A DNA stretch of 64,000 bases from Anaerolineae bacterium (GTDB lineage Bacteria; Chloroflexota; Anaerolineae; Aggregatilineales; Phototrophicaceae): positions 1 through 64,000 of the forward strand of contig JABWBO010000009.1 of the NCBI GenBank assembly GCA_013360465.1. The letters run 5' to 3'. A program made the position numbers and the translations under genes. Positions 27,596 through 35,606 of the stretch are shown here, piece after piece (position 1 is the stretch's first letter; each line of letters begins with the position of its first letter). Below the pieces are notes generated by a model that saw only the letters and a program-made list of their open reading frames with translations, had not been told where the DNA came from and made no database searches.

Positions 27596-30500
27596 ATGAT
27601 CGCCGAGTACTCCGCGCCACAAATCCTTGATCACCGCTACGTGCTGATCGCCGAATTGGGAAGCGGCGGGATGGGTGTGGTCCACCGCGTGCTGGATCGT
27701 CTGACCGGTGACCAGGTTGCGCTCAAGCAGGTAGCGGCGCGCGGCTCTGGCGACAGCGAGGGCGAAGCGGCGGACCGTCTGGCGCTGGCGCAGGAATTTC
27801 GCATCCTGGCGTCGCTGCGGCATCCCAATGTCATCAACGTACTGGACTACGGTTTCGCCGACGAAGGTCAGCCCTACTTCACGATGCGCCTGCTGCAAAC
27901 CCCGCGCTCGATCATCGCCTATGCTGTGGACGAAGATGCGGCGGCGCGGGTGCGTCTGCTGGTACAGACCCTCTCCGCGCTGGACTACCTGCATCGGCGG
28001 GGAGTCATCCATCGCGATCTGAAGCCGACGAACGTGCTGGTCGAGCCGAGCGGCGGCGTGCAGGTACTCGACTTCGGGCTGTCCCAGTTCGGCGCGAACG
28101 CCGGCGTCCCCGGCGGCACACTCGCCTACATGGCTCCTGAGCTGGTCGAAGGAGACAGTCCCAGCGTCGCGGCGGACCTTTACGCGGTGGGCATAATCGC
28201 CTATGAGCTGTTCGCCGGGAGCTATCCATTCGATGTCTCCAATTTCAGCCGGCTGGTCTATGCCATCCTGGAGGATCAGCCGGACTGGACGCCGCTCTAC
28301 GCCTACGATGAATTGAGCGGGACACATCGCCCGCTCCGTAAAGTGATCGCCCGGCTGCTGAACAAGGACCCGGCGCAGCGCTGTTCGAGTGCCTGGGAAG
28401 CCGTCGAGGAGCTGTGCCTGGCGGTTGGGCTGCCCATCCCTCACGAGGAGAAAGCGGCGCGGGAAAGTTTCCTGCAGGCGGCGAATTTTGTCGGACGCGA
28501 TGTCGAAATGTCCACGCTTCAGGGCGCGCTCCAACAGGTGCGGCAGGAGCAGAAGCCTCAGCTCTGGCTGATCGGCGGCGAAAGCGGCATCGGCAAGTCG
28601 CGGCTTCTCGAAGAACTGCGCACTATCGCCCTGGTGGACGGCTGGCGGGTGCTGCGGGGGCAGAGCAGCGCCGACCTGAGGCTGCCCTATCAGGTCTGGC
28701 GCGCGCCGGCACGCAGCCTGATCATCGGCTCGCAGCTCGACGACCTGCAGGCGGCGGTGCTGCGCTCGCTTGCGCCCGACATCGAGACGCTAATCGATCG
28801 CGCCGTCATGTCCGCCGCCGACCTGCAGGGCACTGCCTACGTTCAGCGGCTGGCTTCGACGCTGGCGAGTTTGCTCAGAGATGCCGCCCCCGTCCTACTG
28901 ATCCTCGAAGATCTGCACTGGGCAGGCGACGATCTCGACCTCCTCAGGCAGGTCACGGCGAGTCTGTCTGGCAGTCCGATCCTGATCGTCGGAAGCTATC
29001 GCAGCGACGAACGCCCCGACCTACCCGCCGCTTTCCCTTCGGCACAGAGCCTCTTCCTGAACCGCCTGCCGACGCCGCAGATCGACGCGCTGGCGGAATC
29101 GATGCTCGGCGCAGAGGGGCACAGTTCCGCGCTGGTCGATCTGCTGGAACGCGAAACCGAAGGTAATATCCTGTTCATCATCGAGGTCATCCGCGCGCTG
29201 GCGGAAGAAGCGGGCGAACTGCGGCGCATTCCACAGGAGCGGCTTCCCGCCAGGGTCTTCGCCGGCGGCATCCTGGAAGCCGTCCTGCGCCGTCTGCGCC
29301 GTCTGCCCGATTGGGCGACAGCACTTCTGAATATCGCCGCGCTCGCCGGGCGCGATCTTGATCTCACCCTTCTGCGGTCGCTCGTCACGCCGGTGTTCGA
29401 CCTTGAAGCGTGGCTGACGGCATGCGCCAACGCCGCCGTACTGGAGCTTGCTGATCAGCGCTGGCGCTTCAGCCATGACAAGCTGCGTGAGGCGCTGATC
29501 GCCCAGCTGCCCGATGATCAGTTTCGCCTGCTGCACGCCCAGATCGCCGAGGGCATTCAGCAGGTCTACCCGAACGATGATCAGTATGCCGAGGCGCTGT
29601 TCGAACACCTGCTCGCCGCCAACGAACCAGACCGCGCCATCCCGCATGGACAGGTCGCAGCGCGGGCGGCGCTTGCCAGCAGCCGCTATGGCGATACACG
29701 GCGCATTGTCGACGCCGTTAAGGCGCTGACGGGGGACAGCCTGGAGACAGTCGGCTTCGACCTCTTCGCCGCCGAAGCCGCGCTGTATCAGGGCGATTAC
29801 GCCCGCGCCGATGCCCTTTGCCAGGCGGTCCTGAGCCGTCTGCTGAGCGAGGAGGGGGCGAACGAGGGTGACGCGCGGCGGGCGCGCGCCCTGCTGCTGC
29901 GCGCCCGGCTCTTCACCGTCAAAGGCGACTATCAGCGCGCCGCCCCGACCTTTCAGGATGCCCTGGATCAGGCGAGGCTGGCGGAGGATCAGCGCGGGAT
30001 CGCCGATGCCCTCTTCGGGCTGGGGCAGATCGAGGAGCGGCAGGCAGAGGGTGAACGCGCCGGCGCACACTACGCGCAGTGCCTCGCGATCTACCGGGCG
30101 CTGAACGACGCCGCCGGAATCGCCGACAGCCTGCACGGTATGGGCGGAGTCGCCTACACCAGCGGCGACCACGAAAGCGCCCGCCGAGCCTACGAAGAGA
30201 GCCTCGCTATGCGGCGGAAGATCGGCGACCGTCGGGCGATTGCCAGCAGCTTGAACAACCTGGGCGGGGTCCTGGACGCGCAGGGCAAGAAGGACGAGGC
30301 GCACGCACGTTTCGCCGAAAGTCTGAACCTTCGCCGCGAGATCGGCGAGCGGCGCGGCATCGCCATGAGCCTGCTCAATCTCGGACATCTGCTGGAAGAC
30401 CAGGGCGATCTGGAAAGCGCGTTCGCCCATTTCAGCGAGAGCTACGAACTGTTCCGGGGGCTGGGGGTCAAGCAGGGAATTGCCATCAGCCTGATCAATC

Positions 30501-31045
30501 TCGCTTCGACCTGGCGGCTGCGCGGCGCGCATGTGCGGGCGCGCGGGCTGCTGGACGAAGGGCTGGCGCTCGTCCGTGAGATGGGCGACAGCCTGATGAT
30601 CGCCCACTGCCTGAACGGGCTGGCGCTGGCGGCGCTGGCGCTGGGCGAAACGCCGGCGGCGCTCGCCGCCTCCGACGAAGAGATCGATCTTCGCCGCGAA
30701 CTCGGCGATGCTCACCTGCTGGGGATGGCGCTGTGGACCCGCGCGGAGATTCTCCTCAGCGCCGAACGCCAGCGCGACTCCAACGCTGCGCTGCGCGAAG
30801 CGCTGCTGTTGGGTCTGAACGGAGGATTCGCCGATCTGCTGCTGCGTGCGCTGAAGAGTCAGGTCGTCCGCGGCGAAGGCGGCTCGCTGATCGCCATCCT
30901 GCGGGCGAATCGCGCGCTTGCCGATCTGGAGACGCGACGCTGGATCGATGCGCTGCCCGATCCGCCATCGCCGACGGAGGCTGTGCCAGACCTCGTCGAC
31001 GCCGCGCGGCGGCTCGTCGAGAAGCTTGACCAGGCGGACGGCTGA
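27596..31045 (+). CDS. Ser/Thr protein kinase fused to AAA ATPase and TPR repeats
   Basis: The 1149-residue soluble protein has three parts. Residues ~12-275 form a Hanks-type kinase: glycine loop GSGGMG at 22-27, Lys44 in VALK, catalytic HRDLKPTN, DFG and APE. Residues ~300-650 form an ORC/STAND-like ATPase with Walker A GGESGIGKSR (~326-335) and a Walker B-like LLILEDLHW. Residues ~690-1110 hold many TPR units (for example SLNNLGGVLDAQGKKDEAHA). This plan is known from signalling proteins such as PknK-like regulators; no DNA-binding output domain is visible. The start is ATG 27596. The upstream 205 bp is a divergent spacer shared with the permease. Confidence 0.88.
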   Translation: MIAEYSAPQILDHRYVLIAELGSGGMGVVHRVLDRLTGDQVALKQVAARGSGDSEGEAADRLALAQEFRILASLRHPNVINVLDYGFADEGQPYFTMRLLQTPRSIIAYAVDEDAAARVRLLVQTLSALDYLHRRGVIHRDLKPTNVLVEPSGGVQVLDFGLSQFGANAGVPGGTLAYMAPELVEGDSPSVAADLYAVGIIAYELFAGSYPFDVSNFSRLVYAILEDQPDWTPLYAYDELSGTHRPLRKVIARLLNKDPAQRCSSAWEAVEELCLAVGLPIPHEEKAARESFLQAANFVGRDVEMSTLQGALQQVRQEQKPQLWLIGGESGIGKSRLLEELRTIALVDGWRVLRGQSSADLRLPYQVWRAPARSLIIGSQLDDLQAAVLRSLAPDIETLIDRAVMSAADLQGTAYVQRLASTLASLLRDAAPVLLILEDLHWAGDDLDLLRQVTASLSGSPILIVGSYRSDERPDLPAAFPSAQSLFLNRLPTPQIDALAESMLGAEGHSSALVDLLERETEGNILFIIEVIRALAEEAGELRRIPQERLPARVFAGGILEAVLRRLRRLPDWATALLNIAALAGRDLDLTLLRSLVTPVFDLEAWLTACANAAVLELADQRWRFSHDKLREALIAQLPDDQFRLLHAQIAEGIQQVYPNDDQYAEALFEHLLAANEPDRAIPHGQVAARAALASSRYGDTRRIVDAVKALTGDSLETVGFDLFAAEAALYQGDYARADALCQAVLSRLLSEEGANEGDARRARALLLRARLFTVKGDYQRAAPTFQDALDQARLAEDQRGIADALFGLGQIEERQAEGERAGAHYAQCLAIYRALNDAAGIADSLHGMGGVAYTSGDHESARRAYEESLAMRRKIGDRRAIASSLNNLGGVLDAQGKKDEAHARFAESLNLRREIGERRGIAMSLLNLGHLLEDQGDLESAFAHFSESYELFRGLGVKQGIAISLINLASTWRLRGAHVRARGLLDEGLALVREMGDSLMIAHCLNGLALAALALGETPAALAASDEEIDLRRELGDAHLLGMALWTRAEILLSAERQRDSNAALREALLLGLNGGFADLLLRALKSQVVRGEGGSLIAILRANRALADLETRRWIDALPDPPSPTEAVPDLVDAARRLVEKLDQADG

Positions 31046-31179: not shown

Positions 31180-32538
31180 ATGGCGGACTCTCTAAAAAAC
31201 CTGCTGCGCATCCGCGAAAGCGAAGGACGTACCGTCGTTCTGCTGGGAATGATCCTGATGCTCAACACGCTGGCGCTGGAAGCCGGTGACGTTGTGGCGG
31301 TCGCCGGCTTCCTGGGATCGGTCGATGTCTCGAATATCCTGATCCTATGGATCATCGACATGATCATGATCCTCGCCGTCGGCAGCATCCAGGGGCTGAT
31401 TGTGGACCGCTACAGCCGCATGAAGCTGCTGCGCGCCTTCAGCCTGCTCTTCGCGGTGATCTTCGGCGCGCTCACACTCCTTTTCGCCGCAGGCGTTTCC
31501 GACACGATCACCTATGGGCTGCTCTTCCTGCTGGTCGAACAGCAGAACATCTTCCTGCCGCTCATCTTCTGGATCTTCGCCAGCGAGCTGTTCACCGCGG
31601 CGCAGTCACGGCGGCTCTTCCCGGTGATCGCCAGCTGGTCCGCCATCGGGCAGATCGTGGGCTTGACCCTGGCATCCGCCGCGCCGGTCATCCGCGATGC
31701 GCTGGGCGTCTCCAGCCTGGCGCTCCTGCCGTTCAATATGCTCCTCTATCTGGTCAGCGCCGCCCTGATCCATTATGGCTTCCGCAAAGTGACGATTCAG
31801 ACGGTTCACACTGCCGAGAAGTCGGTCCACTGGCGAGAAAACGTGACGCGCGGTTGGGATTACATCCGCCGCATTGAAGCGCTGCGCTATATGACCATCG
31901 CCAGCTTTTGCGCCGTTATCGTGCTGACCATCATCGATTATCATTTTCTCGCCGTAGCAACACAGACTTTCACCGTCGAAACCACCAGCATCAGCTTTCA
32001 GACCTTTTACGGCATCTACCGGCTGGTGATGACCATCCTGATCATCCTGACGCAGAACCTCGTCGCCAACCGTCTAATTGAACGCTACGGCATCAAGAAT
32101 GCGCTGGTGGCAGTGCCGATCATCGTCCTGGGCGGCGCGCTGTTCGTCTTCATCGGACCGAGTCTGTTCTTCGTCGCGGTGGCGCGCGCTGTGATCCGTC
32201 TGGTCAACAGCTCGATAGACCTGCCGGCGCAGAAAGCGTTCCTCGCCCTCATGCCGGCAGATGTGCGGGGCGCGGTGAGCATCTTCACAGACGGTTACAA
32301 CTTCGCCATCGGGGCGATCATCGCCTCGGTGGTCATCGGCGCGGTGGTCTTCGGCATCCCATCGCTGGCGGGGACGAGCAGCCCGACCCCCCTCTATCTG
32401 GCGGTTGGTCTGCTATTCGCAATTGTCGGTATCATTGCTGTGCGGGCGATGTATCGCACCTACGACGCCACGCTGTTCAACTGGCGTCTGAAACGGCGGC
32501 AGCGGACCGCATCCGTCCTCAAAGACCTCGAATTCTAG
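31180..32538 (+). CDS. Npt1/Npt2-like MFS membrane transporter
   Basis: The 452-residue protein has about twelve hydrophobic segments. The segment IFWIFASELFTAAQSRRLFP, followed by a helix with Ser-Ala-Ile-Gly-Gln-Ile-Val-Gly, closely recalls the conserved FFW-x-F-A-S-D-x-F-x-x-R-Q-A-x-R-L-F signature of the Npt1/Npt2 (ADP/ATP translocase-like) family. The second helix pair has the MFS-type loop GLIVDRYSRMKLL. Family members exchange nucleotides, but many free-living bacterial homologues have unknown substrates. The next gene starts 20 bp after its stop, so it leads a four-gene operon with a cysteine peptidase-like protein, a sensor and an ATP-grasp enzyme. A generic MFS exporter is the alternative call. 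Confidence 0.7.
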   Translation: MADSLKNLLRIRESEGRTVVLLGMILMLNTLALEAGDVVAVAGFLGSVDVSNILILWIIDMIMILAVGSIQGLIVDRYSRMKLLRAFSLLFAVIFGALTLLFAAGVSDTITYGLLFLLVEQQNIFLPLIFWIFASELFTAAQSRRLFPVIASWSAIGQIVGLTLASAAPVIRDALGVSSLALLPFNMLLYLVSAALIHYGFRKVTIQTVHTAEKSVHWRENVTRGWDYIRRIEALRYMTIASFCAVIVLTIIDYHFLAVATQTFTVETTSISFQTFYGIYRLVMTILIILTQNLVANRLIERYGIKNALVAVPIIVLGGALFVFIGPSLFFVAVARAVIRLVNSSIDLPAQKAFLALMPADVRGAVSIFTDGYNFAIGAIIASVVIGAVVFGIPSLAGTSSPTPLYLAVGLLFAIVGIIAVRAMYRTYDATLFNWRLKRRQRTASVLKDLEF

Positions 32539-32557
32539 GCGTCAGAAGGGATCAAGC

Positions 32558-33271
32558 GTGCTGGCTTGGCACAAGGTGAGACCGATCATTCAGCAGGACT
32601 GGTACTGCGGACCCGCGACTCTCGCGATGCTGTACTCTGCCTTCGACCAGACTTACTCACAGGAGGCGGTCGCTGAAGCCACCGGCATTCGTCCGCATAT
32701 CCCTACGCGCGGCTGTCGGGTCGATCAGCTCGCCCATGCCGTCGGCGCGCTCACCCCGGACTTCATCCTGCTCGCCAGGTATGATGCCGGCGTCGAAGAC
32801 CTGCACACCCTCACCGACACGCTCGGCTGTCCGGCTGCGGTCGAGTGGCGCGGCACTTTTCTAGAGCCGAACGGGCATATCTGGCACGAGGGACATTACA
32901 GTATCGTGGAGCGGCTCGATTTCGACGCCGGAGTCGTCCACCTAGTCGATCCCTTCAACGGATCGAACATCGCCCATCGGAACGGCATCATCGCCGTCGA
33001 CGACTTCCTCACCCGCTGGTGGGATGACAACTATCTGCCCGCGCCCGATTCCCGCGATCCGCTGGACCCGGATACCTGGACCGATCACATCTTCACGGAG
33101 CATCTGATCTTCACGCTGGTCGCACGGTCTCAGGCGGAGCCGCTGACCGCGCGCGGCTTTCAACCTGCTTCGGCGGAATTCTCGCGGCGAAGTCACAAGC
33201 CGGGACGCACGCTCGACGCCGGTCTGAGCTATCGCCCCTCCGATCTGGTAAATCAGGACGAGAACACATGA
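32558..33271 (+). CDS. C39-like papain-fold cysteine peptidase
   Basis: The 237-residue protein starts at GTG 32558 with an AGAAGGG site upstream. The opening segment IIQQDWYCGPATLAMLY matches the C39 peptidase active site: an oxyanion Gln, then the nucleophile Cys in a Cys-Gly-Pro-Ala context. A His follows in the EGHYSIVERL strand and an Asp in HLVDPFNG, completing a plausible triad. C39 enzymes classically cut leader peptides at Gly-Gly sites, but stand-alone members are diverse. There is no signal peptide or membrane segment, so it acts inside the cell or is not exported in a standard way. It is tightly coupled to the sensor gene (4-bp overlap). Confidence 0.75.
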   Translation: MLAWHKVRPIIQQDWYCGPATLAMLYSAFDQTYSQEAVAEATGIRPHIPTRGCRVDQLAHAVGALTPDFILLARYDAGVEDLHTLTDTLGCPAAVEWRGTFLEPNGHIWHEGHYSIVERLDFDAGVVHLVDPFNGSNIAHRNGIIAVDDFLTRWWDDNYLPAPDSRDPLDPDTWTDHIFTEHLIFTLVARSQAEPLTARGFQPASAEFSRRSHKPGRTLDAGLSYRPSDLVNQDENT

Positions 33272-34341
33272 CTCAGGAACCCAGCAGCCGCAAACCTCTG
33301 TTCATCAGCGTTCGCGCTCGCCTAGTCATCGGCTTGACGCTCCTCTTCTCGATTGTCTTCATCGGCGGATTCCTGATCGTTTATCAGTTTGCCTCGGACC
33401 GCGCAATGGACCGTCTTGCCGAAGACCTGCGCGTGCTGCTGGAAGGGACCGCCGGGGGCATCGATGGCGACGCCTTCGCCTCGGTGGCGCGGTTTGGCGA
33501 GCCGAATGAAGCCGGGTATTCCGATGATCCGCGTTTCTGGATCATCGTCGATTGGCTGGCATCGATCAAGGCGGTCGATTATCGCACCGGCATCTACACC
33601 ATCGCGCTGAGTGACAGGCTGGGCGAATACGTCCTGATCGCCAGCGCCGCAGCGCGCACTGAACCGGATGACCCCGAGACGGCGCGTTTTCAGCAGCCGC
33701 TCGGTTACGCGCCCGGCGACGCCCCCGCCTTCGACGCGCTCTTCAACGGCGAAACCAGCGAATGGCTGCTGCTGGAGCCGTATCAGGACGACTTCGGCTA
33801 CTGGATCTCCGGGTACGAGAGCATCAAGAACGCCGCCGGCGAACCGGTCGGCGTGGTGGGCATCGATTATCGCGCTGAGTACGTCTTCAGCGTCCAGCGG
33901 CAGATCCTCGACGCAGCCCTTCCCAGCTTTCTGATCGGTTTCGCGGTCTTCTTCATCGTCGTCTACCTCATCTCGATCCCGCTCACCCGCCCGATCACCA
34001 CGCTGACCCTCGCAGCCGAGCGAATCGGCGAAGGCGATTACAGCGCACCGCTGCCGAAAGCCAGCCGCGTCGTCTCCGACGAGTTCAGCATCCTGGCGGA
34101 TGTCTTCCGGGTGATGGTCGGCAAGGTGCAGGGGCGCGAGGTCGAGCTGCGCAAGCAGGTTGAAGAGCTGAAGATCGAGATCGATGAAACCAAGGCGCGC
34201 GCCCAGGTCGCGGAGATCGTCGATACCGACTTCTTCGCCAGCCTTCAGGAGAAGGCGAAGCATATCCGCAGCCGCAGGGATGATCCGCCGCCGGTGCGTT
34301 CGAGCCAGGACGCCGAGACGCAGCCCCGGAGCGAGGGGTAG
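33268..34341 (+). CDS. Cache-like extracytoplasmic sensor with HAMP, no output domain
   Basis: The 357-residue protein has a first transmembrane helix at residues ~12-35 (LVIGLTLLFSIVFIGGFLIV), an extracytoplasmic domain of about 180 residues with a Cache/PAS-like closing strand (AGEPVGVVGIDYRAEYVF), a second helix at ~220-242 and a HAMP region (LTRPITTLTLAAERIGEGDY). A coiled-coil-forming C-terminus (~290-330) and a disordered tail follow. The usual kinase, cyclase or chemotaxis output is missing, so it may signal through a partner. Its start overlaps the peptidase stop by 4 bp (ATGA), and the ATP-grasp gene starts 2 bp after its stop. Likely partners are therefore in the operon (inference). 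Confidence 0.8.
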   Translation: MTQEPSSRKPLFISVRARLVIGLTLLFSIVFIGGFLIVYQFASDRAMDRLAEDLRVLLEGTAGGIDGDAFASVARFGEPNEAGYSDDPRFWIIVDWLASIKAVDYRTGIYTIALSDRLGEYVLIASAAARTEPDDPETARFQQPLGYAPGDAPAFDALFNGETSEWLLLEPYQDDFGYWISGYESIKNAAGEPVGVVGIDYRAEYVFSVQRQILDAALPSFLIGFAVFFIVVYLISIPLTRPITTLTLAAERIGEGDYSAPLPKASRVVSDEFSILADVFRVMVGKVQGREVELRKQVEELKIEIDETKARAQVAEIVDTDFFASLQEKAKHIRSRRDDPPPVRSSQDAETQPRSEG

Positions 34342-34343
34342 GC

Positions 34344-35606
34344 GTGCTGGTTCAAAGTCAGACCGCCGACGGGCTGGCGCTCCTTGACGACTTCATCCGC
34401 TCCTGCGCCTTCTTGCACGACGATTGGACCGACCACGAAGGCGTGGGCGGTTGGGGGCAGTATACGACCAATCCGCTGCTGTTTTCTCCGCCGGTCTGCG
34501 TCACCTCGTCGCTGGCAGGCTATGGTCCGCGCACCATCGACCAACTGCGCAGCCTGGGGGGCTTTCAGGGGAGCATCATCCAGCCGGAATGGCGCACCAA
34601 TAACCTGGCGCTGAATCTGCGCAGCGACCCGCAGGCGATGGCGGCGCTGCGCGAGCAGGTGCAGGCGCAGCGCCTGCATCTCTCCAGTTTCTACAACGAC
34701 CCCGGTCGGAGGATCGACGCCATCGCCGAGTCCCTCTCCTCGCCAGACCACACTGTGCAGGCGCATCCATCTCACAGCGCCTTCATGCAGATGTACAGCA
34801 AACTGCGCTTCTCCGACTATATTGATGGCGTGCCCAGCCCGCAGGCGGCGACCTGCGAGTCGCTGGCGGATCTGAAGGCGTTCGCCCGCGATTCGGCGCG
34901 CGCTAATCCCGGCATGGTGATCAAGCTGGATCACCGCAACCTGTTCCATCTCGATTCCGCGGATGACATTGACGGAATCGCCGATCAGCTCGAGTATCCG
35001 CTGCGGGTCGAGACAGCGTATCCGCTGACCGCGACGCCGATCGTCAATGCCATCCGCTGGAAGGGTCAGGTCGCCCCGCTGTTCATGGTCGATCAGTACA
35101 TCCGCGACTGGCTGCACTGGGGCAATGGATCGCCGGCGTCGGGAACGGCGGAGCAGCGCGCCCGGATGGTCGAATATACGCTCCGCATCGGCGAACAGAT
35201 GGAAGGCTATGAAGGCGTGTTCGGCGTCGATTTCATCCACACGCCAGATGGCGCGATCTACGCGGTGGATATTAACGCCCGCTTCTGCTCCTCGACCTAC
35301 CCCTACGGGCTGCTGACCCGCGCCGGCGTTGACCCCGACCGCACGCACACCCGCTATCGACTGGTCCCCTGCCGGCTGGACAGCCTCGATGATCTGACGA
35401 CCGACCGGGAATTCATCGCGCTGACGCCGGGGAGCGACTGCGGACTCTTCGCTTATGATCCGGTCGCCTATTTCGAACTGCCGCATCCCGTCCACTACGT
35501 CAATTACGTCTGCGTCGCCCCGACCGCAGCGGCGTGTCTAGCGCTTGATGAGATGATGACCCGCATCATCGCCCGGCATACGGCGCGGCACAGCGCCGAC
35601 GACTGA
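34344..35606 (+). CDS. ATP-grasp ligase of unknown substrate
   Basis: The 420-residue protein starts at GTG 34344 with GAGGGG upstream. An N-terminal pre-grasp region of about 140 residues is followed by an ATP-grasp fold. The Lys strand is in GMVIKLDH (about residue 195). The C-terminal metal-binding segment GVFGVDFIHTPDGAIYAVDI is followed by NAR, giving the family's Asp/Asn/Arg ligands. ATP-grasp enzymes activate a carboxylate as acyl-phosphate and join it to an amine or thiol. Substrates in this cluster could be amino acids or a peptide tail, given the adjacent peptidase (inference). No short precursor-like open frame was found close by. It is the last gene of the operon; the next gene begins 72 bp later. 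Confidence 0.8.
   Translation: MLVQSQTADGLALLDDFIRSCAFLHDDWTDHEGVGGWGQYTTNPLLFSPPVCVTSSLAGYGPRTIDQLRSLGGFQGSIIQPEWRTNNLALNLRSDPQAMAALREQVQAQRLHLSSFYNDPGRRIDAIAESLSSPDHTVQAHPSHSAFMQMYSKLRFSDYIDGVPSPQAATCESLADLKAFARDSARANPGMVIKLDHRNLFHLDSADDIDGIADQLEYPLRVETAYPLTATPIVNAIRWKGQVAPLFMVDQYIRDWLHWGNGSPASGTAEQRARMVEYTLRIGEQMEGYEGVFGVDFIHTPDGAIYAVDINARFCSSTYPYGLLTRAGVDPDRTHTRYRLVPCRLDSLDDLTTDREFIALTPGSDCGLFAYDPVAYFELPHPVHYVNYVCVAPTAAACLALDEMMTRIIARHTARHSADD

Follow-up and report, generated by a model that had tools for sequence, protein, structure and literature searches.

In a 64,000-nucleotide stretch of DNA from an Anaerolineae bacterium (positions 1 to 64,000 of contig JABWBO010000009.1, hereafter the window, from assembly GCA_013360465.1, which comprises 5.93 Mb in 256 contigs), four genes on the + strand, encoding a small NTT-like transporter, a C39-like cysteine enzyme, a membrane receptor and an ATP-grasp ligase, form an operon. 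It is a rare form of a cassette that occurs in some lineages of the phylum Chloroflexota. When searched for separately, the transporter and the receptor turned out to be commoner than the ligase and to occur near each other without it. The enzymes are thus the exchangeable part of a widespread cassette, and the question becomes what a transporter-receptor chassis does with many different enzymes. We give about even odds (a probability of roughly 0.5) to these being make-move-sense cassettes, in which the enzymes make a compound, the transporter moves it and the receptor senses it.

To trace the cassette, we built a transporter profile from 11 members, which matched 26 of the 154 genomes of the order (at 1e-20), 41 of the 396 genomes of the class (at 1e-30, in 45 places) and 28 of 400 genomes of the phylum (at 1e-40), 11 of the latter lying outside the class. 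The order and class counts include three and six genomes, respectively, that hold only a long NTT protein, such that by our own reading the small transporter is present in 23 of the 26 and 35 of the 41. We then assembled 64 loci with a transporter of under 700 amino acids, namely 56 loci and a further eight from outside the class, these being eight of the 11 new loci of the phylum search (three of one genus were left out). The 700-amino-acid limit excluded the long NTT proteins of L144-L146, and seven matches of the class search in long NTT proteins (open frames of more than 1000 amino acids) were likewise left out. The set includes partial or weakly similar transporters (L100, L142 and L143) and, of the two half genes of G009, the contig of one; the genes of all loci were called with a simple custom script.

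Of the 64 loci, 53 have a receptor bearing the conserved tail described below no more than five genes away from the small transporter (52 on the same strand, L180 on the opposite one), and so do 47 of the 49 loci whose distance to a contig end is 1.5 kb or more. Among the 32 class-level loci gathered after the profile had been built, 28 had a tail receptor on the same strand and within 3.5 kb. Since 51 of the 61 near genomes have between 1 and 11 matches to the receptor profile, HAMP-only matches included, we estimate that proximity of the two genes by chance would account for a few percent at most. In literature searches aimed at the system, which covered open-licence papers at the level of their listings, no description of a combination of this transporter, receptor and exchangeable enzymes was found.

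Within the window, the four open reading frames (ORFs) were confirmed at 31180-32538, 32558-33271, 33268-34341 and 34344-35606, the first two being 19 bp apart, the second and third overlapping by 4 bp and the last two lying 2 bp apart, so that the tight packing reported in a preliminary description of this DNA was borne out, with a first gap of 19 bp in place of 20. The region contained two promoter-like sites (0.9 expected) and two terminator-like sites (2.3 expected), numbers too close to expectation to be informative. The complete four-gene form has a narrow distribution, its ligase being present in three of 41 near genomes and three of the 15 genomes of the genus (G000, G006 and G003). 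A scan of 84,980 species genomes, which required exact short peptide patterns and so misses distant forms, returned two ligase loci, and these were again G006 and G003. The copy in G006, another species of the genus, has the same order, the same flanks and a ligase of 94% identity, and is split over two contigs with the break inside the C39 gene. G003, also another species, retains all four genes in order and strand at 41-48% identity between different flanks, indicating that the four genes move as a unit. A third relative, G424, keeps the transporter, the C39-like gene and the receptor on a contig that ends 126 bp past the receptor, and in the transporter tree it falls into one clade with G003 and the window (100/97), the window lying on a long branch. 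The preliminary description had named loss of gene order in relatives as one finding that would refute it; two other species retain the order, and the core of transporter and receptor extends far beyond them.

The enzymes that accompany the transporter-receptor core vary. Labelled enzyme families were present in 50 of the 64 loci, in 44 of them together with a receptor; each family name rests on Pfam or NCBIfam matches of at most a few members, with the remaining members assigned by profiles of our own. Among the neighbours up to five genes from the transporter, these enzymes were GNAT (30 loci), a second GNAT type (5), a PreATP-grasp ligase (8), the C39-like enzyme (6), a Ddl-like ATP-grasp ligase (4), S-adenosylmethionine (SAM) decarboxylase (4), P450 (4) and a KamA-type aminomutase (three on the same strand and one on the opposite strand). 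The ligase type of the window was counted in two of the 64 loci, that of G006 lying on its second contig and hence uncounted. The three same-strand aminomutases best match arginine 2,3-aminomutase (610.6, 625.1 and 594.7 bits against an NCBIfam cut-off of 600, which two of them pass and the third just misses). Single cases included a methyltransferase (L092), two reductases (L189) and, in L222, a protein resembling an AMP-dependent coenzyme A (CoA) ligase, below the cut-offs, together with a glutaminase. Mapped onto a transporter tree of 57 loci (L033, L099, L100, L135, L141, L142 and L143 were left out), the enzyme types needed 16 changes, compared to 26.1 when shuffled, and the starred branches alone forced at least five changes for the pooled ATP-grasp type, from which we conclude that the enzyme types are partly inherited and repeatedly exchanged.

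Several individual loci deserve mention. In L201 (3193-7250), a transporter, a SAM decarboxylase, a spermidine synthase, a CxxCxxCC-like protein and a receptor follow one another in one run, making it a candidate polyamine make-and-sense cassette. In L178 (5026-9493), L179 and L140 the arginine 2,3-aminomutase adjoins the transporter, with a Ddl-like ATP-grasp ligase also present in L179, and these loci are candidates for a beta-arginine-derived compound. A CxxCxxCC (putative metal-chelating) protein lies between the transporter and the GNAT in L183, L192, L193, L196 and L199, and was confirmed by Pfam for L192 and L196.

In the loci with a GNAT we asked which cassette part diverges together with the enzyme. 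From the 30 GNAT loci we took the 24 with a complete GNAT and a receptor of two transmembrane (TM) helices, as well as 14 hand-picked representatives of them, and compared the distances of the GNAT, the receptor extracellular domain, the HAMP-tail part and the transporter. Given HAMP-tail and transporter, the partial rank correlation between the GNAT and the extracellular domain was 0.68 in the 24 cassettes (0/1000 permutations) and 0.71 in the 14 representatives (0/1000), and a linear version gave 0.70 (0/2000). The corresponding value for GNAT and HAMP-tail was 0.08 in the 24 (109/1000) and -0.03 in the 14, and no link was seen between the GNAT and the transporter (-0.04 in both sets). Such co-divergence of the GNAT with the receptor's input is the pattern expected of a receptor for the enzyme's product, and we regard it as support, not proof, because phylogeny is not taken into account in the permutations and the rates of the domains are unequal.

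The transporter of the cassette is a small NTT/TLC-like major facilitator protein of 452 amino acids (31180..32538, +) whose family anchors the 64 loci and has a conserved C-terminal tail (NWRLKRRQR...LEF). The single window sequence had no Pfam match. The family profile (11 rows) matched two ADP/ATP carriers of the PDB, the best, a chloroplastic one, with an expectation (E) value of 8.9e-10, over positions 110-318, such that only the middle of the transporter aligns. The likeness to the nucleotide exchange family noted earlier therefore holds as a distant one, with the NTT transporters (ADP/ATP carrier, TLC) being distant sequence relatives of the cassette transporter. NTT transporters, including fusions with other domains, have been described in free-living organisms, according to the accessible text of PMC5381601; compared to NTT-HEAT fusions, the cassette transporter is only about 450 amino acids long, is devoid of a HEAT or cyclic nucleotide (cNMP) part and lies beside a receptor and enzymes.

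The membrane receptor (33268..34341, +) consists of a first TM helix (residues 20-38), an extracellular Cache-type domain, a second TM helix (221-239), a HAMP domain (238-288) and a coiled-coil tail. Its sensor domain (residues 39-220; 33382..33927, +) was delimited by hydropathy and a structural model. In sequence searches HAMP was found with an E-value of 6e-7 and Cache only at 0.1, and the model (mean predicted local distance difference test score, pLDDT, of 85) begins with a long helix, after which come an extracellular Cache-type domain and a second helix leading into HAMP, followed by a helical stretch that carries the conserved tail motif (residues 286-336, ...EIVDTDFFASLQEKAKHIR...; 34123..34275, +). 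The best solved extracellular matches of the model include WalK, a formate chemoreceptor and Tlp3, and the best PDB match of the HAMP domain is Af1503 (E = 3.3e-5). A more specific assignment of the sensor domain, by the amino-acid motif of dCache_1 receptors, was discarded: the Y-x4-R-x-W stretch at residues 84-91 is not conserved across 33 receptors, and the domain of about 182 residues was judged too short for a double Cache. Nothing recognizable as an output domain was found past HAMP and the tail; HAMP is the last recognized cytosolic domain, in agreement with the earlier view of a sensor devoid of an output domain. The tail motif is common to other HAMP and GAF proteins of related genomes, among them those of nine stretches (L102-L110) that have a tail protein and no transporter match, and judging from this distribution it may be a common docking element.

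Variants of the receptor's arrangement were also seen. In one of these nine stretches (L109:6838-9015) the tail-bearing GAF protein directly adjoins an ATP-grasp gene, with no transporter in the stretch, and in L100 (1942-4690) a dCache-HAMP-GAF-tail receptor ends with 1 bp to spare ahead of a divergent transporter gene, which is cut short by the contig end. The receptors of L096-L099, L181, L185 and L222-L224 have five or six TM stretches by simple hydropathy, and Pfam places an energy-coupling factor (ECF)-type riboflavin transporter S component ahead of HAMP and tail in L096 (above cut-off) and L099 (just below); an S-component-like membrane domain would be unusual as a sensor. In five of five cases the second GNAT type was paired with a multi-TM receptor; this link was dropped, as all of them fall in one clade of the transporter tree.

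Turning to the two enzymes of the window, the C39-like one (32558..33271, +; 237 amino acids, GTG start) was assigned to the papain-fold cysteine enzymes from its sequence, its family residues and a model. Peptidase_C39_2 of Pfam is matched only below the cut-off (E = 0.0065, 17.5 bits against 24), and a search of the family profile against solved structures gave a single match with an E-value of 0.41, which we counted as none. The model (mean pLDDT 81) is papain-like, with PeiR, phytochelatin synthase, the staphopains and the C39 domain of ComA among its matches. Gln12 (32591-32593), Cys17 (32606-32608), His113 (32894-32896) and Asp131 (32948-32950) are invariant in the six family members, which leaves the previously proposed C39-type triad intact; we take Cys, His and Asp to be catalytic and Gln to be the oxyanion residue. 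The enzyme thus has its fold and its Gln-Cys-His-Asp set in common with the papain-like enzymes of the Peptidase C39, phytochelatin synthase and PeiR kind, but unlike Peptidase C39 it stands alone, is not fused to an ABC exporter and scores below the family cut-off, and no shared small ORF that could be a double-glycine precursor was found within 6 kb. Its profile finds it in eight of the 154 genomes of the order, six of these occurrences belonging to cassettes. The two relatives outside cassettes (G471 and G455) each overlap a Ddl-like ATP-grasp gene (Dala_Dala_lig_C, 1.8e-21 and 4.1e-20), indicating that a ligase and a C39 enzyme recur as partners outside the cassette, albeit with a different ligase family.

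The ATP-grasp ligase (34344..35606, +; 420 amino acids, GTG start) appears from domain search and profile alignment to be a divergent relative of the PGM1/BesA-like amino-acid and peptide ligases. It matches ATP-grasp_3 above the cut-off (E = 7.7e-6), and its Lys194 (34923-34925), Asp309 (35268-35270), Asn311 (35274-35276) and Arg313 (35280-35282) are invariant in three members, so that the Lys/Asp/Asn-Arg set read from the sequence at first inspection is indeed complete. The link to PGM1, BesA and 8ynd runs via the PreATP-grasp family of sister cassettes, with which the window family aligns over residues 65-411 (hhalign E = 1.1e-7) and which itself matches the ATP-grasp peptide ligase 8ynd (7e-16) and PGM1 (4e-12). 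Identity in this alignment is 22%, and the window ligase carries DxN in place of ExN near the domain end.

In a make-move-sense cassette, the cytoplasmic enzymes (in the window, the ligase and the C39-like enzyme) would make a small amino-acid- or amine-derived compound, the role that in relatives would fall to GNAT, arginine 2,3-aminomutase, SAM decarboxylase with or without spermidine synthase, P450, or an AMP-dependent ligase with glutaminase. The NTT-like transporter would carry the compound across the membrane, probably outward, and the Cache-HAMP receptor would bind the compound or a close form of it outside the cell. The state of the receptor would then pass via HAMP to the conserved tail, which would dock on a shared cellular partner. 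Tentatively, and with the odds against it, we further propose that the cassettes constitute an undescribed modular chemical communication system in Chloroflexota, with exchangeable amino-acid or polyamine synthases, an NTT-derived exporter, a cognate Cache-HAMP receptor and a tail that relays the signal to MinD/ParA-type ATPases and to a SpoIIE/RsbW/STAS partner switch; through exchange of the enzyme and adaptation of the receptor input domain, each lineage would acquire its own signal.

A lead for the receptor's output is given by the neighbouring genes. In 20 of the 64 loci a gene for a MinD/ParA-like ATPase is no more than five genes away, including all eight loci outside the class (three of which share one genus), and in some loci, such as L182 and L222, genes for a SpoIIE-type phosphatase, an RsbW-like ATPase and STAS proteins stand in the same runs. 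A ParA-like profile built from the cassette-adjoining genes matched only 44 places in the 61 near genomes at 1e-30, although most of these 61 are other genomes than those with the neighbouring genes; in the genome of the window it found one such gene at 1e-30, on contig C122 (3723-4496), about 6 kb from a tail-bearing GAF protein.

A number of findings weigh against a make-move-sense cassette. No labelled enzyme was found in 14 of the 64 loci; L138 and L139 have a transporter and no receptor, away from contig ends; and the ligase type of the window is rare (three of 15 genomes of its genus), with a search of the 396 class genomes giving only the window's own ligase and two weak, short matches. 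The enzyme types are in part inherited with the transporter, as the 16 changes against 26.1 indicate, and the association between the second GNAT type and multi-TM receptors, coming from one clade, is not independent evidence. The co-divergence set covers GNAT cassettes only, such that the enzyme types of the window lie outside it; in this set the extracellular domain also co-diverges with the transporter (0.58 in the 24, 0/1000; 0.40 in the 14, 3/1000), and in the linear version the correlation of GNAT with HAMP-tail is weaker yet unusual (0.27, 1/2000). Moreover, co-divergence with the enzyme would also be expected if the receptor did no more than control the transporter and all three met the same substrate. 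The receptor is devoid of an output domain, no labelled signalling partner is present in the window's cassette, and the ligand, the transport direction and the output partner of the cassette are inferred.

The last of these considerations leads to a possible but doubtful alternative, namely that, as proposed for Af1503-like receptors, the receptor senses a solute outside the cell and gates the transporter directly, with the enzymes only modifying the transported solute, whether in uptake and conversion or in detoxification and export. Af1503, the best PDB match of the receptor's HAMP, offers a precedent, as HAMP is its sole cytosolic part and it shares an operon with a putative metal-ion transporter (accessible text of PMC4834066), and the co-divergence of input domain and transporter fits as well. 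However, the tail also occurs in the GAF and HAMP proteins of L102-L110 without a transporter, and is thus not a transporter-specific dock, and several of the slot enzymes (arginine 2,3-aminomutase, SAM decarboxylase, spermidine synthase) appear by their families to be biosynthetic in kind. A second alternative is a small specialized-metabolite cluster, antibiotic-like or making a metal chelator, with an exporter and with a receptor whose only task is to control the cluster's own production, and without communication. The ligases are relatives of BesA and PGM1, arginine 2,3-aminomutase occurs in antibiotic pathways, the P450 is nearest to ApyO, a P450 model of ribosomally synthesized and post-translationally modified peptides (RiPPs), below its cut-off, and a weak likeness to a kasugamycin acetyltransferase (E = 0.002) was seen for one GNAT. 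We nevertheless consider such a cluster improbable, as a typical locus has one to three labelled enzymes, most genomes have a single locus (45 places in 41 genomes), and the enzymes are kept with the receptor in families outside the class too.

Far less credible is the tailoring of a ribosomal peptide by a C39 protease and an ATP-grasp enzyme with a distant precursor, an option raised in the preliminary description with which the enzyme names agree in general terms. It was weakened by a comparison of intergenic small ORFs (those overlapping called genes were excluded), in which none of the four of the window (15-90 amino acids, within 6 kb) matched any of 107 from six related loci; in addition, C39 is present in only six of the 64 loci and is not fused to an ABC exporter. 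That the four genes are chance neighbours with unrelated roles is next to negligible in our view: only the rarity of the four-gene form speaks for it, and it is refuted for the window enzymes by their recurrence in G003 between different flanks, and for the transporter and receptor by the 53 of 64 loci that have both.

Among described systems, the make-move-sense cassettes are closest to the effector-less HAMP receptors of the Af1503 type, which are archaeal (Archaeoglobus) and often lie near transport genes, Af1503 itself sharing an operon with Af1505, as far as the accessible text of PMC4834066 describes them. Both kinds of receptor have an extracellular sensor, TM helices, HAMP as the last recognized domain and a transporter in the operon; however, the Af1503 system has an MgtE-type transporter and the small protein Af1502, whereas the cassette has an NTT-like transporter and adds biosynthetic enzymes and a conserved coiled-coil tail. 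A translationally coupled protein of 60-90 residues like Af1502 is absent from the window, where the receptor gene is followed by that of the ligase and gaps measure 2-19 bp. We regard the cassettes as receptor-transporter operons of a kind already known, in which the combination with exchangeable enzymes appears to be new. With quorum sensing by LuxI/LuxR or autoinducer-2 (AI-2), in which a self-made signal is paired with a receptor, the cassette would share this idea, its receptor being a Cache-HAMP membrane protein; no Pfam or NCBIfam match to LuxI/LuxR or AI-2 parts was found in the scanned cassette proteins. To our knowledge, Anaerolineae have no established signalling system of their own, and Chloroflexota are reportedly mentioned in a survey of AI-2. 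Should the proposal be true, each cassette would name a candidate synthase, transporter and receptor, making the ligands directly testable, output-less HAMP receptors of the Af1503 kind would gain a bacterial family in which genetics can seek the output, and an NTT-fold transporter would be seen in use beyond nucleotide exchange.

Finally, a Ser/Thr kinase-AAA-TPR protein of 1149 amino acids (27596-31045, +) shares the strand of the window's transporter, ends 134 bp upstream of it and is a possible alternative regulator. Similar proteins (E-values of 1e-27 to 1e-29, perhaps via shared domains) lie directly 3' of the transporter in L138 and L139, the two receptor-less loci away from contig ends, and others are found elsewhere in the loci examined.

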